Source: a virus. Taken from it: a DNA stretch of 35,330 nt. Each line of letters starts with the position of its first letter. Positions within the stretch are counted from its first letter, which is position 1. This document shows, piece by piece, positions 181 through 28,882 of the stretch. The stretch spans positions 1 through 35,330 of the IMG/VR virus record IMGVR_UViG_3300043464_000140; one strand, given 5' to 3'. Under the pieces are notes generated by a model. That model searched no databases and was not told the DNA's origin. It worked only from the letters and a program-made list of their open reading frames with translations. The position numbers and the translations under genes were made by a program.

Positions 181-776
181 AAATCAACAAACATAAACAT
201 TCCAACGCCATTATCTTTAAGCCATGTTCCTGATGTATCGCCAGCAATGGTTACAGTTTTATATTCAAAAGTATTAGCAGAACTTATAGTAAAGTTTGTT
301 ACATAACTTCTATCTAGTCCGTTGTTTGATATTGCAACCGAATAAGTGCCTGTAACGCTTGAACGCACCCAAAAAGATACTGTTACTGTTTTAGCATCAG
401 CAGTTCCCCAACCTAAATCGGCAACATTAAACCCTTCAATTTGCTGATTAAAAATTGATACTTGCCCTGATGTTGGAGATGCTCCTGTGCCTACAGTAAC
501 GATAACACTATTTATAAAACCAGCAGGTGCTGTTGTTGAGCGTTGAGTAGTATGTCCTGAACCTTGTGCAATACGAACTTGGAATCTATCAACAGGATAT
601 ACAGGGCTACTTCCTACACTAATAGAAGCACCAGCATTACGCTGGTCAATCACCATCGCACCATTGATGATTCTTGACTTCATATTTACAGAAGGTGTAA
701 CTGCATTAGCGGATATAGCACCGCTATACATCGGTGTCGTAATTCCGTTTGTGCCGTCAATAGTTACTGGTGGCAT
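1..776 (-). CDS. Tail fibre protein, N-terminal part (continues across the circular junction)
   Basis: The gene starts at ATG 776 with a strong AAGGAG ribosome site and runs open to the window edge. The protein begins MPPVTIDGTNG and carries the fibre signatures NGAMVIDQRN, a YPVDRFQV segment, VSFWVRSS and YITGVQLEVG. These are typical of carbohydrate-binding, jelly-roll-like fibre tips in environmental phages (family knowledge). The frame continues exactly into the segment ending at 34796; joined, the gene is 1131 nt, or 376 residues. Its start overlaps the end of the upstream homing endonuclease by 13 nt. It probably contacts the host surface. Fibre identity is fairly secure; the receptor is unknown. 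Confidence 0.8.
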   Translation of the reverse strand, partial: MPPVTIDGTNGITTPMYSGAISANAVTPSVNMKSRIINGAMVIDQRNAGASISVGSSPVYPVDRFQVRIAQGSGHTTQRSTTAPAGFINSVIVTVGTGASPTSGQVSIFNQQIEGFNVADLGWGTADAKTVTVSFWVRSSVTGTYSVAISNNGLDRSYVTNFTISSANTFEYKTVTIAGDTSGTWLKDNGVGMFMFVDLGSGTDREATAGSWGAGWKTRTSGSVQLAATSGATFYITGVQLEVGSTATSFDYRPYGTE

Positions 777-1426
777 GATTGCTCCTTACGCTGTTGATGC
801 CATGCCTTTACAGCTTGGCTAATTTTTAATCTATCTTCATCTGTGTAAACACGCTTTGCTCTTGATGCTCTCATCTTAGCCTTTGTTTCTTCGGACATCT
901 TTTTACCTTTGTTAGGATGCACCTCAAGCGAATCCCAATGCTTACGCTGTGATTCACGCATCTTGGCTTTGGTTTCTTCGGATGCTTGTTTACCAAGATT
1001 ATGCCCAACACGACCTTTAAGGGCTTCTGAGAGCTTTCTTTTGCCTTCCTCAGGATAAGCCTTGCCTTTCATGCCCGACCTACTGCCAAGCCGTCTAGTA
1101 TGGATTCTGCCAGTCAATGCTAGGCTATGCTTGCGTCTGCGTTCTTCAGTCCATGTAGAGCCTTCAGAACCGCCCAATTCAATATTGTAGCCATTAGGTA
1201 CTATTGTATCCAATACCGCTATCCAAAAGCGTTCTACTGCGTTTAGCGTGGCTCTATTTTCAATACTTGTACAGAGTGGTTCGTAGTCAAAGTTATCTTT
1301 GCCATGTAGCTTATACGCACTTTTCATAATGCGACCATGCCCAATCGGTAGATGTGGGTTGATAGTCTGCCCGACATATTGCTTGCCGTTTAGCTTATTG
1401 GAAACTAAGTAAACTTGTGCGTTCAC
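764..1426 (-). CDS. GIY-YIG homing endonuclease (free-standing)
   Basis: This 220-residue protein has an N-terminal GIY-YIG nuclease domain: VYLVSNKLNG near residues 5-14, then YVGQT at 18-22, a conserved E in ERFW and the GYNIELGG segment near 80-87. The C-terminal half carries about five short repeats of the type S-E-E-T-K-A-K-M-R, resembling NUMOD3 DNA-binding modules of phage-encoded homing enzymes. The start is GTG at 1426, with AGGAG inside the end of the preceding gene. The stop overlaps the following fibre gene. It is inserted between fibre-module genes with no intron boundary recognisable, so it is a free-standing mobile gene expected to cut a related allele lacking it. The family call is strong; the target site is unknown. 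Confidence 0.88.
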   Translation of the reverse strand: MNAQVYLVSNKLNGKQYVGQTINPHLPIGHGRIMKSAYKLHGKDNFDYEPLCTSIENRATLNAVERFWIAVLDTIVPNGYNIELGGSEGSTWTEERRRKHSLALTGRIHTRRLGSRSGMKGKAYPEEGKRKLSEALKGRVGHNLGKQASEETKAKMRESQRKHWDSLEVHPNKGKKMSEETKAKMRASRAKRVYTDEDRLKISQAVKAWHQQRKEQSCHQ

Positions 1427-3752: not shown

Positions 3753-5301
3753 TTGTTGCTCCTTCTTGAGCGGCTTTCATCATTAATAATTTTGCTATTC
3801 TTCGCTGTTCAGGTGTTCCTGAGTTAGCAAGATTAATAACAGGTCGTGATGCTTTACCCGCCAATATAGTTGCCTCACCCATTAGACGGGGTGATTGGGC
3901 GGGTAATGTTGCTAATAGCATAGGGTCTAAAGCAAATGCGCCAGCACCAGTAACCGATGGCAATAATCGCTGTAAACCTCTTGGTGTTGGTGAACTAAGT
4001 GCCTGTCCAGCTAACTGCGCCATGATGGGCTTACCGCTTGCTTGTTCTAACATTTCAGCGTAATTTACTCGGTTACCGTAGTTGGTGTTTACATTGTCAC
4101 GCATGACCGACTGTAATCTGCGTAACGATGAGTCGATTGATGATTTATTGCCTAAACCAAGTGCTTTTTTGAGTTCAGAAGCTTGATCTAAACCCTCAGA
4201 ATACTTCTTCATTACGCTATCGTATACGGGTGCTTGTTTCTTAACTTCATCCCGTACAGAAGAATAAATACCGCCTACTGCTTTACGCAAAGTTTGCTGT
4301 TCAAAAGGTATCTTTTCTAGTTCAAGACCAATCATTTGTTTAAGTTGATCCATGCCTTCAGGAGTATGGAAATCAGCAGGGTTTTCTTTTTTCCAATCGT
4401 CAACAATAGCTTTAATTCTATCTACTTCGTCAACAATTTCTTTTTTGTTTACTTTACCCTTAAATATGCCTAGATTTCTAGCATTATCAATGGATTTATC
4501 AATGCCTTGAAAGTCTAATATGGTCTTATCTTTTTTGATGTCGATCATACCGCTACGGTATTGGTTTTGTAGGTCTTTACCCATGTTGGTTAAGCCTAGC
4601 AAGGCATCATCTACAACATTCTCCATGGGTGCTTGTTTACGCAAGTTTGAAGCCAATGCTTTAAGCTTGTCACCGCCCTGTACAGCGGCATTGTATGCAG
4701 TCTTATAAGCTTGTGAACCTACACCGCTTAGATTGCCAATGACTTCAGATGCAAGATTGCCACCCATTTTGGCTATTGGTCTAATTAATTCACCTGCCGC
4801 ACCGCCTACTGCTCCAAAGGTTGCGCCTTGTTGACGATTTTCTTGGTCAGGAGTTAAGGCGTACCCAGTAGCACCACCAATAGCCGCCTGTTGACCTGTA
4901 GCCCTAGCAAAACTAGGAATCATGTTAAGCGTCTTAGCGACTTGTGGGACTTGTGCAACAGTATTTAATGTCTTTTGTGCCGCACCAAATGGCAACACAT
5001 ACGAACCAATCTGTCCTACAGTTCCCGATACAGGCGCAACACTCTTAGCACCCTCGGTCATTGCCCCGCCTACTTCAACAAGGCGATTACCAGCATTAGG
5101 AAAGCCAGCCATTTGGGTTAAAGCACCAGCACCTTTAATAAGTTCACCAGTACCACCAACAAGCATAGGCCCAACAACACCGCTTTTACCACCTGTTTGT
5201 GGGTTGCGTAAGCTGGTTAAAAAGCGGTCATAGGCTGTTTCAGGCTTTGCTTGGTCAGGAACAAACTGTAGTGATTGCTCGGTATCGGGTACAAATTTCA
5301 T
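3745..5301 (-). CDS. Putative internal virion / DNA ejection protein
   Basis: This 518-residue protein begins with a charged segment, then has a Gly/Ala-rich, weakly hydrophobic stretch (about residues 38-185) with repeated G-G-A and V-G-G patterns. It is followed by a long Lys/Asp/Glu-rich helical region (about 200-400) and another hydrophobic stretch near 425-480. Amphipathic, membrane-compatible architecture of this kind at this position, between tail genes and fibres, is typical of ejection proteins that form a channel in the envelope. No lytic domain is visible. It overlaps the gene at 5298-6557 by 4 nt (ATGA). The function is inferred from composition and gene order. Confidence 0.5.
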   Translation of the reverse strand: MKFVPDTEQSLQFVPDQAKPETAYDRFLTSLRNPQTGGKSGVVGPMLVGGTGELIKGAGALTQMAGFPNAGNRLVEVGGAMTEGAKSVAPVSGTVGQIGSYVLPFGAAQKTLNTVAQVPQVAKTLNMIPSFARATGQQAAIGGATGYALTPDQENRQQGATFGAVGGAAGELIRPIAKMGGNLASEVIGNLSGVGSQAYKTAYNAAVQGGDKLKALASNLRKQAPMENVVDDALLGLTNMGKDLQNQYRSGMIDIKKDKTILDFQGIDKSIDNARNLGIFKGKVNKKEIVDEVDRIKAIVDDWKKENPADFHTPEGMDQLKQMIGLELEKIPFEQQTLRKAVGGIYSSVRDEVKKQAPVYDSVMKKYSEGLDQASELKKALGLGNKSSIDSSLRRLQSVMRDNVNTNYGNRVNYAEMLEQASGKPIMAQLAGQALSSPTPRGLQRLLPSVTGAGAFALDPMLLATLPAQSPRLMGEATILAGKASRPVINLANSGTPEQRRIAKLLMMKAAQEGATNE

Positions 5302-6557
5302 TGTAATGTTCCTGTTACACCGTTAACTGTTACTTTATCGCCTTTTTCTACTTTCTTTTCTCTTATTGCTTTATCAAGATCGGCTTGGCTTGAAAACACT
5401 TTAGGCGTAGCAGGTTTTGCTGGAGCATTAGCCGTTGAAGCACTTGGAGCAGAAGGTTTAGATGTAGGCTGTCTTGTGCCTTTTTCCAAATCATCTAAAT
5501 ATTGATTAAACCCTTTTAGTTTACTAATAATTTGATCTGCTGTATCGGTTGTTGCTGGCAAGAATGAATTAAGTCTTGTTAACTCTTGTGCGCTTTGTGC
5601 TGTACCTGCTCGTTCTTTAATTACGGCTGACACATTGTTAAACACATAAGCACGGGCTTGAGTTTGTTCAGGTGTTTCAAATCTTCCAGCAATAGATTCA
5701 CCGTAAGGTAAGCTTTGCGCTACGCCACGACCAAATCCAAATGCTGATTTATTTGCTTGTACATCTGCAATAGCACCATTAACGGTTGCTCTTTGTTGAT
5801 TAATAGCAAGAATATCTTTGTTTTGTTCAGAACTTAATTTTGTTTCTAATGGCTTACCACCTGCCATGATTGGAGATGCTTCACCTGTGCGAGTATTTAC
5901 AATCATTGGCCCTTGAGCAGTTTCTACTACTTGACCTGCTTGTGGCATCTGCGCTTTAGGTATTCTTTGCAATACTTTTGTTGGGTCAACAGGATCACGA
6001 ATTTCAATATGTGTGCCAGTATCCACTTGAATAGGCGCACGAACCTTTGCAGGGCCAGCGGCTATTTCTCTTGTAGATCCGTCAGGCATTCTTTCAAAAC
6101 GAACTCCACCTTCAGTTAGGGTAAACGCTTCAGGATCAGCGGTTAACTTAGCAAACGCTAAGTCACGCATTCTTGGCGATGCTTTAGGGTTGTAATAAAG
6201 ATTAGCAAGTGCGGCTCTATTATTCGGTGGAATTGCTGGTGCATTTTCCTTAGCAGGAGTTCCTAGTCTAGTTTTCTCAAAATCAGCAAAAGCTTCAATC
6301 TCACCCTGACGAATACGGTTAGCTAAATCTAATGCTTTTTCATCCGCTTTGTACATTCCATATGCGCCAAGTGCGGTGTTAAATAAATTAGCTAGGTTTT
6401 GTGTTGGTGCTACAGGAATAAATCGATTTCCTACCATTTGTCCTTGTGGTTGTTGTTGACCTTGAGCAATAAGCATTTCAGCCAGCTTGCGCTGACGATT
6501 CATGCCTAATATTTCAGGCTGGTAAGGATTTGAATATTGATCTAATAAATTTGCCAT
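5298..6557 (-). CDS. Putative internal virion / structural protein
   Basis: This 419-residue protein has a Gln/Pro-rich N-terminus (residues 25-55), an Ala/Leu-rich helical region, a central beta-rich part around 160-230, and a Pro/Ala/Thr/Ser-rich linker near 360-385. It ends in a small KOW/SH3-like tail (KVEKGDKVTVNGVTGTLQ). It lies between the short Pro/Gln-rich gene at 6561 and the ejection-type gene at 3745, and the stop and start overlap. No known enzyme motif is found. It is probably a virion protein ejected with or surrounding the DNA; the exact role is not recognised. Confidence 0.5.
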   Translation of the reverse strand: MANLLDQYSNPYQPEILGMNRQRKLAEMLIAQGQQQPQGQMVGNRFIPVAPTQNLANLFNTALGAYGMYKADEKALDLANRIRQGEIEAFADFEKTRLGTPAKENAPAIPPNNRAALANLYYNPKASPRMRDLAFAKLTADPEAFTLTEGGVRFERMPDGSTREIAAGPAKVRAPIQVDTGTHIEIRDPVDPTKVLQRIPKAQMPQAGQVVETAQGPMIVNTRTGEASPIMAGGKPLETKLSSEQNKDILAINQQRATVNGAIADVQANKSAFGFGRGVAQSLPYGESIAGRFETPEQTQARAYVFNNVSAVIKERAGTAQSAQELTRLNSFLPATTDTADQIISKLKGFNQYLDDLEKGTRQPTSKPSAPSASTANAPAKPATPKVFSSQADLDKAIREKKVEKGDKVTVNGVTGTLQ

Positions 6558-6560
6558 AAT

Positions 6561-6917
6561 TTATCCTGCAAACGGGGTATTGAACGACATAAATTCAGGG
6601 CCACCCTGATTCATTAGCATCTGCTGTTGACTTGTCACTGGGTTCATAGCATCTTGCATATACTGACCCTGTTGACCATATGCGCCTTGAGGTGTACCAC
6701 CGTAAGGGGCTTTTTGTCCCTGTCTTAACATTTGTGCAAGAGCCATAGGGTTAATACCTAGTGAATGCCCTTGTCCTACTGGTGAACCTAAGTTCTGTTG
6801 CAACAATGCACGGTGCATTTGTTCTTGAGCAGACTCATTCATAAACACAGGTCGCTGACCCGATACATCCTGCATATTTTCCATCATCAACGGTCTTTGG
6901 GGTGTATACGGATTCAT
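6561..6917 (-). CDS. Small Gln/Met/Pro-rich hypothetical protein
   Basis: This 118-residue protein is unusually rich in Q, M, P and G (for example YGQQGQYMQDAMNP and SQQQMLMNQGG), with almost no hydrophobic core, so it is probably disordered. The start at 6917 has GAGG upstream, and the end lies 3 nt from the next start. It sits in the tail/internal-protein operon and may be a virion or assembly factor. No homologous family is recognised from the sequence alone. Confidence 0.6.
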   Translation of the reverse strand: MNPYTPQRPLMMENMQDVSGQRPVFMNESAQEQMHRALLQQNLGSPVGQGHSLGINPMALAQMLRQGQKAPYGGTPQGAYGQQGQYMQDAMNPVTSQQQMLMNQGGPEFMSFNTPFAG

Positions 6918-27337: not shown

Positions 27338-27485
27338 ACAGTTCCTTTATTCGTTTTTTTACATCCGCTTCTGTGTCTTTATTTTGTTCAATTAATTCTT
27401 TGACCATATCCCAGTTCCTATAACGCTGGGCTATGGCTATGTAAGATTGGGCCAAATACTCAATCCTTTGTTTATAGCTGTTCAT
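27315..27485 (-). CDS. Small charged protein (56 aa)
   Basis: The frame from ATG 27485 to TAA 27317-27315 gives 56 residues (begins MNSYKQRIEYLAQSYIAIAQ, ends KELYARNRPE). It overlaps the upstream gene by 14 nt and the downstream start by 23 nt. It is probably two helices. The 134-nt gap between neighbours has no other reading. No family recognised; the coding call rests on continuity of the coupled cluster. Confidence 0.5.
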   Translation of the reverse strand: MNSYKQRIEYLAQSYIAIAQRYRNWDMVKELIEQNKDTEADVKKRIKELYARNRPE

Positions 27486-27849
27486 CTAATTGCTTAATCT
27501 TTTGGCTAATCCTAGCCCGCCATTGTTGCCACGCCTCACCAGCATAAGCAGGGCATCCGACTTCCTGCGCTTTACGGGCGGTCAGTTCCTCAGTCGAGTA
27601 CCACGGTAATTCGGGTTTTTTGTTGGGTTCTAGGTCAATCTCGTCAGTCCAGCGTTCAGCGTTTAAGAACGAGGCAGGGTACGGGATGTAGTCTTTTTGG
27701 GTTTCCTTGATCTTCCAATATTTAAGGTAGTTTGGCATGGCTTCTAGGCATTCTTTTTGCTGGATAGGGGTTAGCCTATTCCATGCCCGTTCAGCGTCTT
27801 TGCGCCCCATTTTACGGGGGTATAGGGAGTAGAAATCTTGAAAGGTCAT
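27472..27849 (-). CDS. Hypothetical protein with YP-(R/K)-K...AW motif (replication-associated type)
   Basis: From the internal ATG 27849 the product is 125 residues, beginning MTFQDFYSLYPRKMGRKDAERAWNRL. The F-x-x-Y-P-x-K-x-x-K-x-x-A-x-x-A-W-x-x-L pattern is found at the N-termini of many phage replication-associated and DnaT/DnaC-neighbour proteins. I prefer this start to the upstream frame (27975) because the upstream part would encode a Cys/Asn-rich sequence antisense to nothing useful, while a small membrane peptide ends exactly at this ATG (ATGA). No ATPase motif is present. Confidence 0.65.
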   Translation of the reverse strand: MTFQDFYSLYPRKMGRKDAERAWNRLTPIQQKECLEAMPNYLKYWKIKETQKDYIPYPASFLNAERWTDEIDLEPNKKPELPWYSTEELTARKAQEVGCPAYAGEAWQQWRARISQKIKQLDEQL

Positions 27850-27947
27850 TTGTTCATCCAGTAATAAAGAAATGCGGCAATTATCATAAAAGTAGCAAAT
27901 ACAATAAATGTCGCTATTGCAAAAAAGGTGATTATTGTTTCGATCAT
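27846..27947 (-). CDS. 33-residue membrane microprotein
   Basis: ATG 27947 follows GGAGAAATTA (a good ribosome site) and shares one base with the previous stop (TAATG). The TGA at 27848-27846 overlaps the next ATG (ATGA). The peptide begins MIETIITFFAIATFIVFATF and is almost wholly hydrophobic (residues 4-28, a single membrane helix) with a short polar end YYWMNK. Coupling at both ends argues that it is translated. It is probably inserted in the inner membrane; it could be a toxin-like, exclusion or host-takeover peptide, but nothing in the sequence decides this. Confidence 0.6.
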   Translation of the reverse strand: MIETIITFFAIATFIVFATFMIIAAFLYYWMNK

Positions 27948-28123
27948 TAATTTCTCCAACGCATTGGTTGGTCATTTTTGGTTAATGCAGAAAAATGGCT
28001 GATTCTAATTTCAGTTGTTGATTTCCATTTAACCAAACCATCTTCGTCTTGGTCTTTAATTACATGACCATGACTACCCTCTTGGTGTTTTACTCTATCG
28101 CCTTCTTTAAACTGATATTCCAT
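27947..28123 (-). CDS. Small beta-barrel-like protein (58 aa), first gene of leftward early operon
   Basis: ATG 28123 to TAA 27949-27947, 58 residues, beginning MEYQFKEGDRVKHQEGSHGHV and continuing with KDQDEDGLVKWKSTTEIR. The pattern G-D-R-V-K-H-x-x-G-x-x-G-x-V-x-x-x-x-D-x-D-G-x-V-x-V-K-W is that of a small SH3/KOW-like fold. It starts about 24 nt after the predicted transcription start at 28147 and is the first gene of the leftward operon. Function unknown; possibly a small adaptor binding a host protein. Confidence 0.6.
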   Translation of the reverse strand: MEYQFKEGDRVKHQEGSHGHVIKDQDEDGLVKWKSTTEIRISHFSALTKNDQPMRWRN

Positions 28124-28146: not shown

Positions 28147-28182
28147 TGTTACCAGTTTATTAAGGTAGCTTAACCATGTCAA
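28147..28182 (-). promoter_or_regulatory. Leftward promoter with operator-like palindrome and 5' hairpin
   Basis: Leftward -35 TTGACA (28182-28177), 17-nt spacer, -10 TAAACT (28159-28154), predicted +1 A at 28147. The spacer holds TTAAG-N4-CTTAA (28160-28173). The transcript would start with ACTT-AATTAA-AAGT, a 4-bp hairpin whose first base is +1. The same design occurs at 28883-28918 and 31503-31539. It drives the 28123 to 25116 gene cluster. Confidence 0.72.
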
Positions 28183-28497
28183 CAGTTATTTTATAGGGAT
28201 TTACCCTAAGTGTTGCTTTTTTAATACGAGATTGCTAGATTTTGAGGACACACCTATCCCTAGCATGAGGAATAGGTGTTATTTACGATCTTGCTGAGTT
28301 TGTCGGTTCATATTGCTTCGATGTCTTTGTCGTGCCTAGGTCTGTCTTTATCACATCATCGGTCTATCCGTACAGTACGGTTCTCTTAGGTAGCCAAGCA
28401 ATAACGGCTAAATGAGGCGCATTTGCGCTAGTAGTTTCTAGGGGTATTTACAGCCTTTACCGTAGCAACACCAATGAGTACGGGCTAGGCAGAATAG

Positions 28498-28513
28498 AAA
28501 AACCCCTTGGGGT
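28498..28513 (-). terminator. Short hairpin-plus-T terminator for the regulator gene
   Basis: On the leftward strand ACCCC-AA-GGGGT is followed by TTTTCT. It is 128 nt after the regulator stop at 28641, so it could end that transcript. The stem is only 5 bp with a 2-nt loop (or 4 bp with 4 nt), so its strength is uncertain. The same bases also form part of the larger structured element. Confidence 0.4.
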
Positions 28514-28628
28514 AGCTCTAAGTTGATACCGCTTAATAAATGGGTCAACAGCATTTATTAAACGCTCAAAGCTACCTCAAAGGGTCTTGAGGGTTGACCA
28601 ATATAACTACGCAGGTATCAATCTGCGT
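28502..28628. other. Candidate structured RNA or origin element with nested stems and pseudoknot
   Basis: Outer stem: 28507-28517 pairs with 28570-28580, 11 bp including one G-U. Inner hairpin: TTAATAAATG (28533-28542) with CATTTATTAA (28552-28561), 10 bp perfect, loop GGTCAACAG. The loop's GGTCAAC (28543-28549) is complementary to GTTGACC (28593-28599). TTGATACC (28523-28530) is complementary to GGTATCAA (28614-28621), but the latter also lies in a competing hairpin ACGCAG/CTGCGT (28609-28614 and 28623-28628). Alternatives and a pseudoknot suggest a switch-like RNA or an origin. Confidence 0.45.
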
Positions 28629-28640
28629 CAACAGTATACA

Positions 28641-28862
28641 TCAATCTAATTCAGGCCAAATTAATTTATAACTTTCAGGAAATAGGGTCTTTCGGTTTAC
28701 TAGCCCGTGACTTTGTTTCTCAAGGGTTGCGGCTAGGATCACCAGCTTATCGTAGGGTATGTCCCCGTTTTGCCACATGGATACGGCAGGAACGCTGATA
28801 TTTAGCAATTTAGCAACCTTGGTAGGGCCACCCAATAAACGAATGATAGCGACTGAGTTCAT
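28641..28862 (-). CDS. P22-Cro/YdaS-type helix-turn-helix regulator
   Basis: From ATG 28862 the product is 73 residues. IIRLLGGPTKVAKLLNISVPAVSMWQNGDIPYDKL contains a helix-turn-helix (about residues 13-32), and NRKTLFPESYKLIWPE near the end is the C-terminal signature of the P22 Cro/YdaS family. An upstream ATG at 28877 adds five residues. CTTAAC at 28870-28875 lies next to the start, suggesting autorepression. It is the only recognisable repressor gene, placed divergently from the early operon. No larger CI-like partner or integrase is seen, so lysogeny is unproven. Confidence 0.82.
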   Translation of the reverse strand: MNSVAIIRLLGGPTKVAKLLNISVPAVSMWQNGDIPYDKLVILAATLEKQSHGLVNRKTLFPESYKLIWPELD

Positions 28863-28882
28863 AAGGTATCTTAACATATTTC

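Follow-up and report, generated by a model that had tools for sequence, protein, structure and literature searches.

A covarying double-pseudoknot RNA between a phage repressor gene and a second structured RNA: a possible conditional terminator

What is encoded by the untranslated, densely self-complementary stretch next to a small repressor gene in the virus record IMGVR_UViG_3300043464_000140, whose 35,330 bases we refer to as the window? A sequence-only reading had delimited the structure to 28502-28628 and, deeming so many long complementary segments hard to explain as coding or terminator sequence, had suggested a switch-like small RNA or a replication origin. The complementarity is above chance (z of -4.6 on the plus strand and -7.1 on the minus strand, none of 200 shuffles being as good either way), and the interval is structured but was drawn too short: a promoter and an RNA, RNA1, form a unit on the minus strand that starts with the -10 element at 28638, extends to 28489, and is followed by another structured RNA, RNA2.

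RNA1 begins at the stop codon of the repressor gene. Left of 28.9 kb, the genes lie mostly on the minus strand (repressor, replication-initiator-like, RusA, terminase, portal, head, and tail genes), and to the right start plus-strand genes for an 81-aa product, a 264-aa product of unknown function, and an exonuclease-like protein. The repressor matches the Pfam family P22_Cro (31.8 bits, cut-off 30.2) and PHROG repressor families, as well as YdaS_toxin below the cut-off (24.1 bits against 30). A palindrome like TTAAGNTANCTTAA occurs at 28160-28173, before the downstream operon, and at 28862-28874, at the repressor's own start; such palindromes are possible repressor operators, and a similar site lies near 4890 in the distant locus L255. 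Near the end of the contig, the window also carries a homing-endonuclease-like gene (PHROG 314; 764-1426, minus strand). The features of the region are as follows.

28641-28877, minus strand: Cro/YdaS-like helix-turn-helix repressor gene, 78 aa, directly upstream of RNA1
28633-28644, minus strand: putative RNA1 promoter, TTG-ATG-TATACT, overlapping the repressor stop codon
28489-28628, minus strand: RNA1, complete structured module (R1 covariance model, 130.1 bits; covariation)
28609-28628, minus strand: hairpin H1, ACGCAG (28628-28623) with CTGCGT (28614-28609); its 4-bp core can form in 80/80 relatives
28622-28626, minus strand: P0 5' strand, GCAGA, pairing with TCTGC at 28493-28489 and excluding H1 (covariation GCGGA/TCCGC)
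28615-28621, minus strand: pk1a, TTGATAC, the loop of H1 (two-sided change in 7/7 pairs, 80 RNAs)
28593-28599, minus strand: pk2a, GGTCAAC, linker strand of pseudoknot 2 (complementary versions across RNAs)
28565-28588, minus strand: P1 5' strand, 24 positions with one A-C mismatch in the window (two-sided change in 9/24 pairs)
28552-28564, minus strand: P2 5' strand, 13 bp (two-sided change in 8/13 pairs)
28543-28549, minus strand: pk2b, GTTGACC, apical loop of P2 and partner of pk2a
28530-28542, minus strand: P2 3' strand (covariation, 80 RNAs)
28523-28529, minus strand: pk1b, GTATCAA, between the 3' strands of P2 and P1 (covariation, 80 RNAs)
28499-28522, minus strand: P1 3' strand (covariation, 80 RNAs)
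28498-28502, minus strand: T-run, a terminator-like end whose first four T are the end of P1 (five T in 80/80 aligned RNAs)
28489-28493, minus strand: P0 3' strand, TCTGC, beyond the T-run (motif-anchored counts)
28240-28488 (approximate ends), minus strand: RNA2, class c, between RNA1 and the replication genes, where relatives carry other structured RNAs
27472-27975: replication-initiator-like gene, downstream of RNA1

Fold and covariation of RNA1

The segments named by the sequence-only reading are all present and are components of a larger fold. The 11-bp outer stem with one G-T (TTGGGGTAGCT, 28507-28517, with AGCTACCTCAA, 28570-28580) is not a complete unit, since it is part of the 24-position stem P1. 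The perfect 10-bp inner hairpin was correctly seen (TTAATAAATG/CATTTATTAA, 28533-28542 and 28552-28561, with the 9-nt loop GGTCAACAG), as were the complementarity of GGTCAAC in that loop to GTTGACC at 28593-28599 (50 nt apart, start to start), the pair TTGATACC (28523-28530) with GGTATCAA (28614-28621), and the hairpin ACGCAG (28609-28614)/CTGCGT (28623-28628). Where one pseudoknot had been noticed there are two, both backed by covariation: pk1 joins the H1 loop to the strand between P2 and P1, and pk2 joins the linker to the P2 loop. With the chain bent at the pk1 bulge, P1 (24 bp) could lie alongside the roughly 21 bp of P2 plus pk2, and in such a model both pseudoknots would fit into one molecule; the pseudoknot strands could also pair between two RNA1 molecules, as a dimer.

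P1 ends in GGGGTTTTT in the window, and P1 together with GGGGTTTTT is, as judged from its sequence, terminator shaped, contrary to the view that the stretch resists explanation as a terminator. A GC-containing stem stands directly before the T-run, as in intrinsic terminators; the CCC/GGG pairs of this stem are kept in 77, 80, and 80 of 80 RNAs, and the TATT that follows the T-run is invariant in all 80. The inner part of P1 contains the motif UUUGAG/CUUAGA, which could be a protein site. When we looked for a riboswitch-like pocket, the conserved columns proved to be mostly paired, and the conserved unpaired ones lie mainly in the joint after the T-run.

Conservation and covariation of the pairings among related phages, the lack of which had been named beforehand as grounds for abandoning the idea, are both present. 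In the first 45 distinct RNAs aligned (H1, pk1, P1, and P2), 97.7% of the cells are paired, two-sided change occurs in 26/48 pairs, and the covariation score is 0.404 against 0.152 when shuffled (0/500). With 80 distinct RNAs, pairing amounts to 97.5%, versus 84.6% after shuffling and 35-58% for slid controls, with two-sided change in 25/48 pairs and a score of 0.383 against 0.148 (0/500); the count of further pair types was no higher than in shuffles in either set. Most RNA1 helices thus vary by compensatory change, H1 only weakly. The wobble cells of the 80 relatives comprise 552 G-U and 21 A-C, and a reading of the opposite strand would give 552 A-C; RNA1 is therefore assigned to the minus strand, which the sequence-only reading had not recognized. 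One pair is G-U in 80/80 RNAs.

The mutual exclusion that had been proposed, between the ACGCAG/CTGCGT hairpin and TTGATAC/GTATCAA, does not exist, since TTGATAC is the loop of that very hairpin, but a different pair of helices does exclude each other. A conserved TCYGC comes after GGGGTTTTTCTATT and pairs with the 5' GCRGA to form P0, and H1 and P0 cannot coexist because they use a common strand (GCRG). Across 73 distinct end combinations (10 of 175 rows without one of the motifs being left out), P0 is fully Watson-Crick in 59, against 50.0 in shuffles (0/2000), and its first outer pair in 49, against 38.7 (0/2000); the next two pairs outward show no or a weak excess (29 against 29.1 and 31 against 26.2). 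These figures are motif anchored, the alignment itself being one base out of register in P0 for eight rows, the window's included. In the 80 anchored RNAs, the central pair of P0 is A-U in 66, G-C in 10, and G-U in 4, and the 14 RNAs with GCGGA have a matching TCCGY in 10 cases and a matching H1 strand in only 2. H1 can form in 80/80, four pairs of P0 in 80/80, and the fifth in 79/80. Two conserved, mutually exclusive pairings, as looked for in an attenuator, are hence found in P0 and H1, the latter with little two-sided change. The linker also tends to mimic the 5' strand of P2 and to pair with its 3' strand (102 RNAs, mean z of -0.85, 35 below -1 and none above 1); this tendency reaches 21 unbroken bp in L075 and is not universal.

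The pk2 helix deserves separate mention. Its best version within the molecule has a mean length of 7.4 bp across 113 distinct RNAs, and combinations with the loops of other alleles give 4.65 bp; it measures at least 7 bp in 97 of the 113, with 52 distinct self-complementary versions that fall into 24 groups when those with a common 6-mer are merged; 13 of 126 distinct RNAs could not be parsed for pk2, and 16 of the 113 parsed have a best helix below 7 bp. This helix can change faster than the RNA1 body: between L132 and L239, only 3 of 83 body positions are different, compared with 6-7 in either strand of pk2; the 5' part has 8 differences. Some related RNAs lack pk2, e.g., an allele found at one of the ends of contig G016, and we therefore consider H1-pk1-P1-P2 to be the core of RNA1.

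Promoter, spread, and exchange of RNA1

In 83 nonredundant regions upstream of RNA1, the -10 hexamer is mostly TATAMT, behind unrelated genes too; T, T, and G occupy -6, -5, and -4 before it in 63, 70, and 57 regions, and no clear -35 element was found. The transcription start would lie near 28626 in the window. Among 141 tabulated loci (redundant contigs kept separate, with approximate positions for three type B rows), the gene closest upstream is the repressor in 80, a 103-aa family without a Pfam match in 23, DUF5672 in 16, a PAPS-reductase-like gene or a similar family in 14, and one of a few others in the remainder; in 4 loci, the upstream gene is on the opposite strand. Cargo genes of these kinds, among others, sit between the regulator and the RNA1 promoter in, e.g., L157, L133, L075, and L188, and this gap is likely a hotspot for accessory genes. 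The idea that RNA1 is a partner of the repressor was rejected, as RNA1 also occurs behind other genes and behind a second type of small helix-turn-helix gene.

Relatives were collected with the repressor protein, for which the best 80 of 201 matches were taken as loci, and with its 264-aa neighbor (48 loci). Behind the repressor stop codon, many loci have RNA1 in different letters, and others have a different RNA or a further gene. A pattern of the 3' part retrieved at least 120 stretches, and the R1 covariance model scored above 94 bits in 99 of the 100 loci given to it; these were chosen by their 3' part, so that only the remainder of the RNA is independent evidence, and L216 is cut off. R1 also matched 24/24 long records, which had been picked for carrying RNA1, with two matches above 50 bits each in G014 and in G016. 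Other folds, types B, C, and D, take this position in other phages and, by eye, have the same topology, in which the H1 loop pairs with a strand before the 3' side of P1 and a T-run follows.

Comparison of neighboring sequences shows that the alleles of RNA1 are swapped like cassettes. Identity between L088 and the window is 95-100% for the repressor, for the 264-aa gene, and for the 299 downstream bases but 80% for RNA1; L097, conversely, has the RNA1 of the window unchanged, next to a repressor with 93% identity and a 264-aa gene with 91%. RNA1 is exchanged independently of the class of RNA2 and of the repressor. The two ends of contig G016 (L280, 1-870; L281, 16950-17846) duplicate the locus with flanks that are close by eye and quite different RNA1s, apparently a population polymorphism at RNA1.

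Rfam 15 does not include this phage RNA family. The whole window had no match in that database; the sole hit from ten loci searched at an E value of ≤1 was sok, on the other strand of L068 and with 22.4 bits against a cut-off of 59; and the RNA1 stretches of the window, L012, and L133 gave only microRNA and snoRNA matches far under the cut-off. In a collection of cultured phages, neither the 1.3-kb region nor the L131 unit had a DNA match, and protein relatives of the repressor (9 records) were at most 51% identical. Five of these records were opened, and only MW202674 matched R1 (26 bits, L255), with the same H1-loop/P1 topology by eye; L257 resembles L255 by eye only. One distant relative comes from Manatee Spring. 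In bacterial genomes, the RNA pattern found nine stretches, of which one matched R1 and eight did not at an E value of ≤1; the match is in L254 (2608-2749, minus strand; 127.9 bits), a contig of 3.5 kb that belongs to a Bacteroidota MAG and may have strayed there from a phage. None of 369 genomes of one class matched RF02932 or R1, a result that is uninformative, as the control genomes were silent too. The literature on phage structured RNAs, put RNA, Betaproteobacteria-1 RNA, EGFOA RNA, and attenuation, partially covered through titles and the beginnings of abstracts, yielded no description of RNA1.

The second structured RNA

RNA2 measures ∼190-250 nt and exists in several unrelated-looking, exchangeable classes. 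Two-sided change affects 16/27 predicted pairs of class a (27 sequences), and for class c, that of the window, covariation was judged by eye. The class d RNA2 of L131 is the Betaproteobacteria-1 RNA, RF02932 (94.6 bits, cut-off 49.4; 6464-6589, plus strand), the other class d loci being assigned by sequence pattern only. The Rfam name of RNA2 is the sole pointer to a possible betaproteobacterial host. The RNA2 of the window resembles EGFOA, RF02955, below the cut-off (21.2 bits against 37.7; 28309-28447, minus strand), and one representative each of classes a and b had no Rfam match. In L164, L170, and L206, a stretch with long G and T runs (GAGGAAAGAGAAAACACC...) lies behind RNA1, in the place of RNA2.

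When loci were collected from RNA2-only scans, RNA1 was found upstream of RNA2 in 43/43 distinct regions of class b and 27/27 of class c; for class d, a script found it in 65 of 82 regions among the matches listed, a number that includes L318, L326, and L394, of a doubtful other type. Counted over all loci instead, class d gives 64, with a slightly different pk1 criterion, and class b gives 44. The script left 17 class d regions without RNA1 among the matches listed; by eye, one of them, L328, carries an RNA1 with a poor T-run, which counts against a conditional terminator. The other 16 of the 82 have no RNA1 and instead a -10-like hexamer (TAAGAT, TAGAAT, TAAACT, or TATAGT) directly before RNA2, abutting it at the stop codon of similar kinds of genes. 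This form of hexamer, chosen after the sites had been seen, stands just before RNA2 in only 2/65 RNA1-bearing regions of class d (among the matches listed), 0/27 of class c, and 0/43 of class b. This contrast makes RNA1 look like an optional module inserted between a promoter and RNA2. By plain similarity to TATAAT, the RNA1-bearing and RNA1-less loci are not clearly different, with a best match of mostly 4/6 in both, and RNA2 may have a weak promoter of its own; for the RNA2 of the window, neither a promoter nor a terminator of its own was seen.

Possible function and comparison with known systems

Where RNA1 is present, no clear promoter is seen for RNA2 itself, so that polymerase probably passes RNA1, and because passage is probable yet nearly all members have the shape of a terminator, conditional or partial termination is the simplest reading. 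Based on these sequence comparisons, we propose that RNA1 is an optional, exchangeable, double-pseudoknot conditional terminator, i.e., an attenuator, between a promoter and RNA2, and we put the probability of this reading at roughly 0.46. RNA polymerase would start near 28626, and H1, P2, and the pseudoknots would form during synthesis; P1 would then zip, and some or all polymerases would stop in the T-run. If the T-run is passed, TCYGC would emerge, displace the 3' strand of H1, and close the module as P0, which would form only on read-through transcripts, and RNA2 and the replication genes behind it would be transcribed. Candidates for tipping the balance are a host or phage protein, another RNA, or the speed of transcription. 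As allele exchange keeps the fold and changes many of the paired bases, such a partner would either recognize the shape or work via the complementary segments that each allele carries. The nested stems, the two pseudoknots, and the exclusive helix pair fit a switch-like small RNA, a suggestion of the sequence-only reading that is supported in part. Against conditional termination, the alignments of RNA1 revealed no conserved antiterminator strand opposite P1, and P0 could do no more than close a longer, stable RNA, one without any 3' end at the T-run, which would fit the invariant TATT as well.

In a reading that we regard as possible but doubtful, RNA1 and RNA2 are tandem stable small RNAs, RNA1 acting in trans as a structural RNA (a decoy or partner of a protein) made together with RNA2 from a shared promoter and separated from it by leaky termination or by RNase cleavage in the U-rich joint. 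The promoter directly before RNA1, the pairing of most of its bases, a fold kept while sequence is exchanged, and an exchange independent of RNA2 class and repressor would all be expected of such an RNA, as would the invariant G-U pair, the possible protein site in P1, and the conservation of P0 and other bases beyond the T-run. In the loci read, however, RNA1 is immediately followed on its own strand by a structured RNA2, as would befit a cis element, and some phages have RNA2 without RNA1. We consider unlikely an extension of conditional termination to a self-recognizing gate, in which finished RNA1 would act in trans on nascent RNA1 of the same allele through pk2 (and pk1) and decide on passage into RNA2 and the replication genes; recognition would be allele specific because the pk2 and pk1 segments are complementary within an allele and mostly not between alleles. 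If true, the allele would be an RNA incompatibility or superinfection type, swapped as a cassette between near-identical phages. If RNA1 were simply an always-active terminator or insulator for the repressor operon that drift has elaborated, this would explain P1, the T-run, and the position behind repressor or cargo genes; we find it quite improbable, as it has no need of pk1, pk2, and P0, all kept by compensatory change, nor of a -10 element right before RNA1, and RNA2 would be silent behind it unless a promoter has been missed.

Two further readings can be weighed against counts already at hand. It is very unlikely that RNA1 is an antisense regulator of the phage's own messages acting through hypervariable segments: the pk2 loop is hypervariable like copy-control loops, and single contigs exceed expectation for 9-mers (88 against 51 in G010, 79 against 61 in the window), but 23 RNAs from 21 contigs, with G002 included in part and G014 mostly, show no overall excess of matches to their own genomes (9-mers, 1292 against 1198; 10-mers, 333 against 315; 11-mers, 89 against 88.7; 12-mers, 25 against 25.3). 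Least credible of all is a DNA structure at a replication origin, with hairpins in single-stranded DNA, the alternative suggested earlier alongside the small RNA. The stretch does lie upstream of the replication-initiator-like gene, and the cumulative GC skew, proposed as an origin sign, turns near 27-29 kb, but it does so where the genes switch strand and is no evidence for an origin, and the promoter, the T-run, and the abundance of G-U cells over A-C, including a pair that is always G-U, point to RNA, since G-T is a mismatch in DNA. A type III toxin-antitoxin arrangement finds no counterpart here either: directly behind the terminator stands the structured noncoding RNA2 and no endoribonuclease toxin gene.

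RNA1 combines strong compensatory evolution with a double pseudoknot, one helix of which is hypervariable yet nearly always self-complementary, and its presence or absence and the allele swaps at one site provide natural controls. The Betaproteobacteria-1 RNA is not known to have a function; our results suggest that in phages it is frequently preceded by a 5' partner, possibly one that gates its transcription, and the roles of both thereby become testable. The two RNAs are distinct: the class d RNA2 of L131, a member of RF02932, follows RNA1 immediately and seems to share its transcription unit, so that Betaproteobacteria-1 RNA is the downstream neighbor of RNA1, which has no Rfam match of its own. 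EGFOA RNA (RF02955), in turn, is only a weak, below-cut-off match to the RNA2 of the window.

Among systems known from other elements, intrinsic terminators and the antisense-controlled attenuators of plasmids pT181 and pIP501 are alike in having a promoter, an alternatively pairing leader, a GC-containing stem with a T-run, and a gene behind; RNA1 differs in its two covarying pseudoknots, in being an optional and exchangeable module, and, in the mechanism proposed here, in governing an RNA. The put RNAs of HK022 are likewise phage RNAs near a Cro-side early operon that affect termination, as is proposed for RNA1; RNA1 would differ from them in its greater size and in having a terminator-like end of its own. 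The packaging RNA of phi29 is a phage RNA with covarying loop complementarity, as RNA1 is, but its gene context and fold are different, and nothing in RNA1 pointed to rings. We suggest that RNA1 belongs with the structured leaders and conditional terminators, a kind already known.
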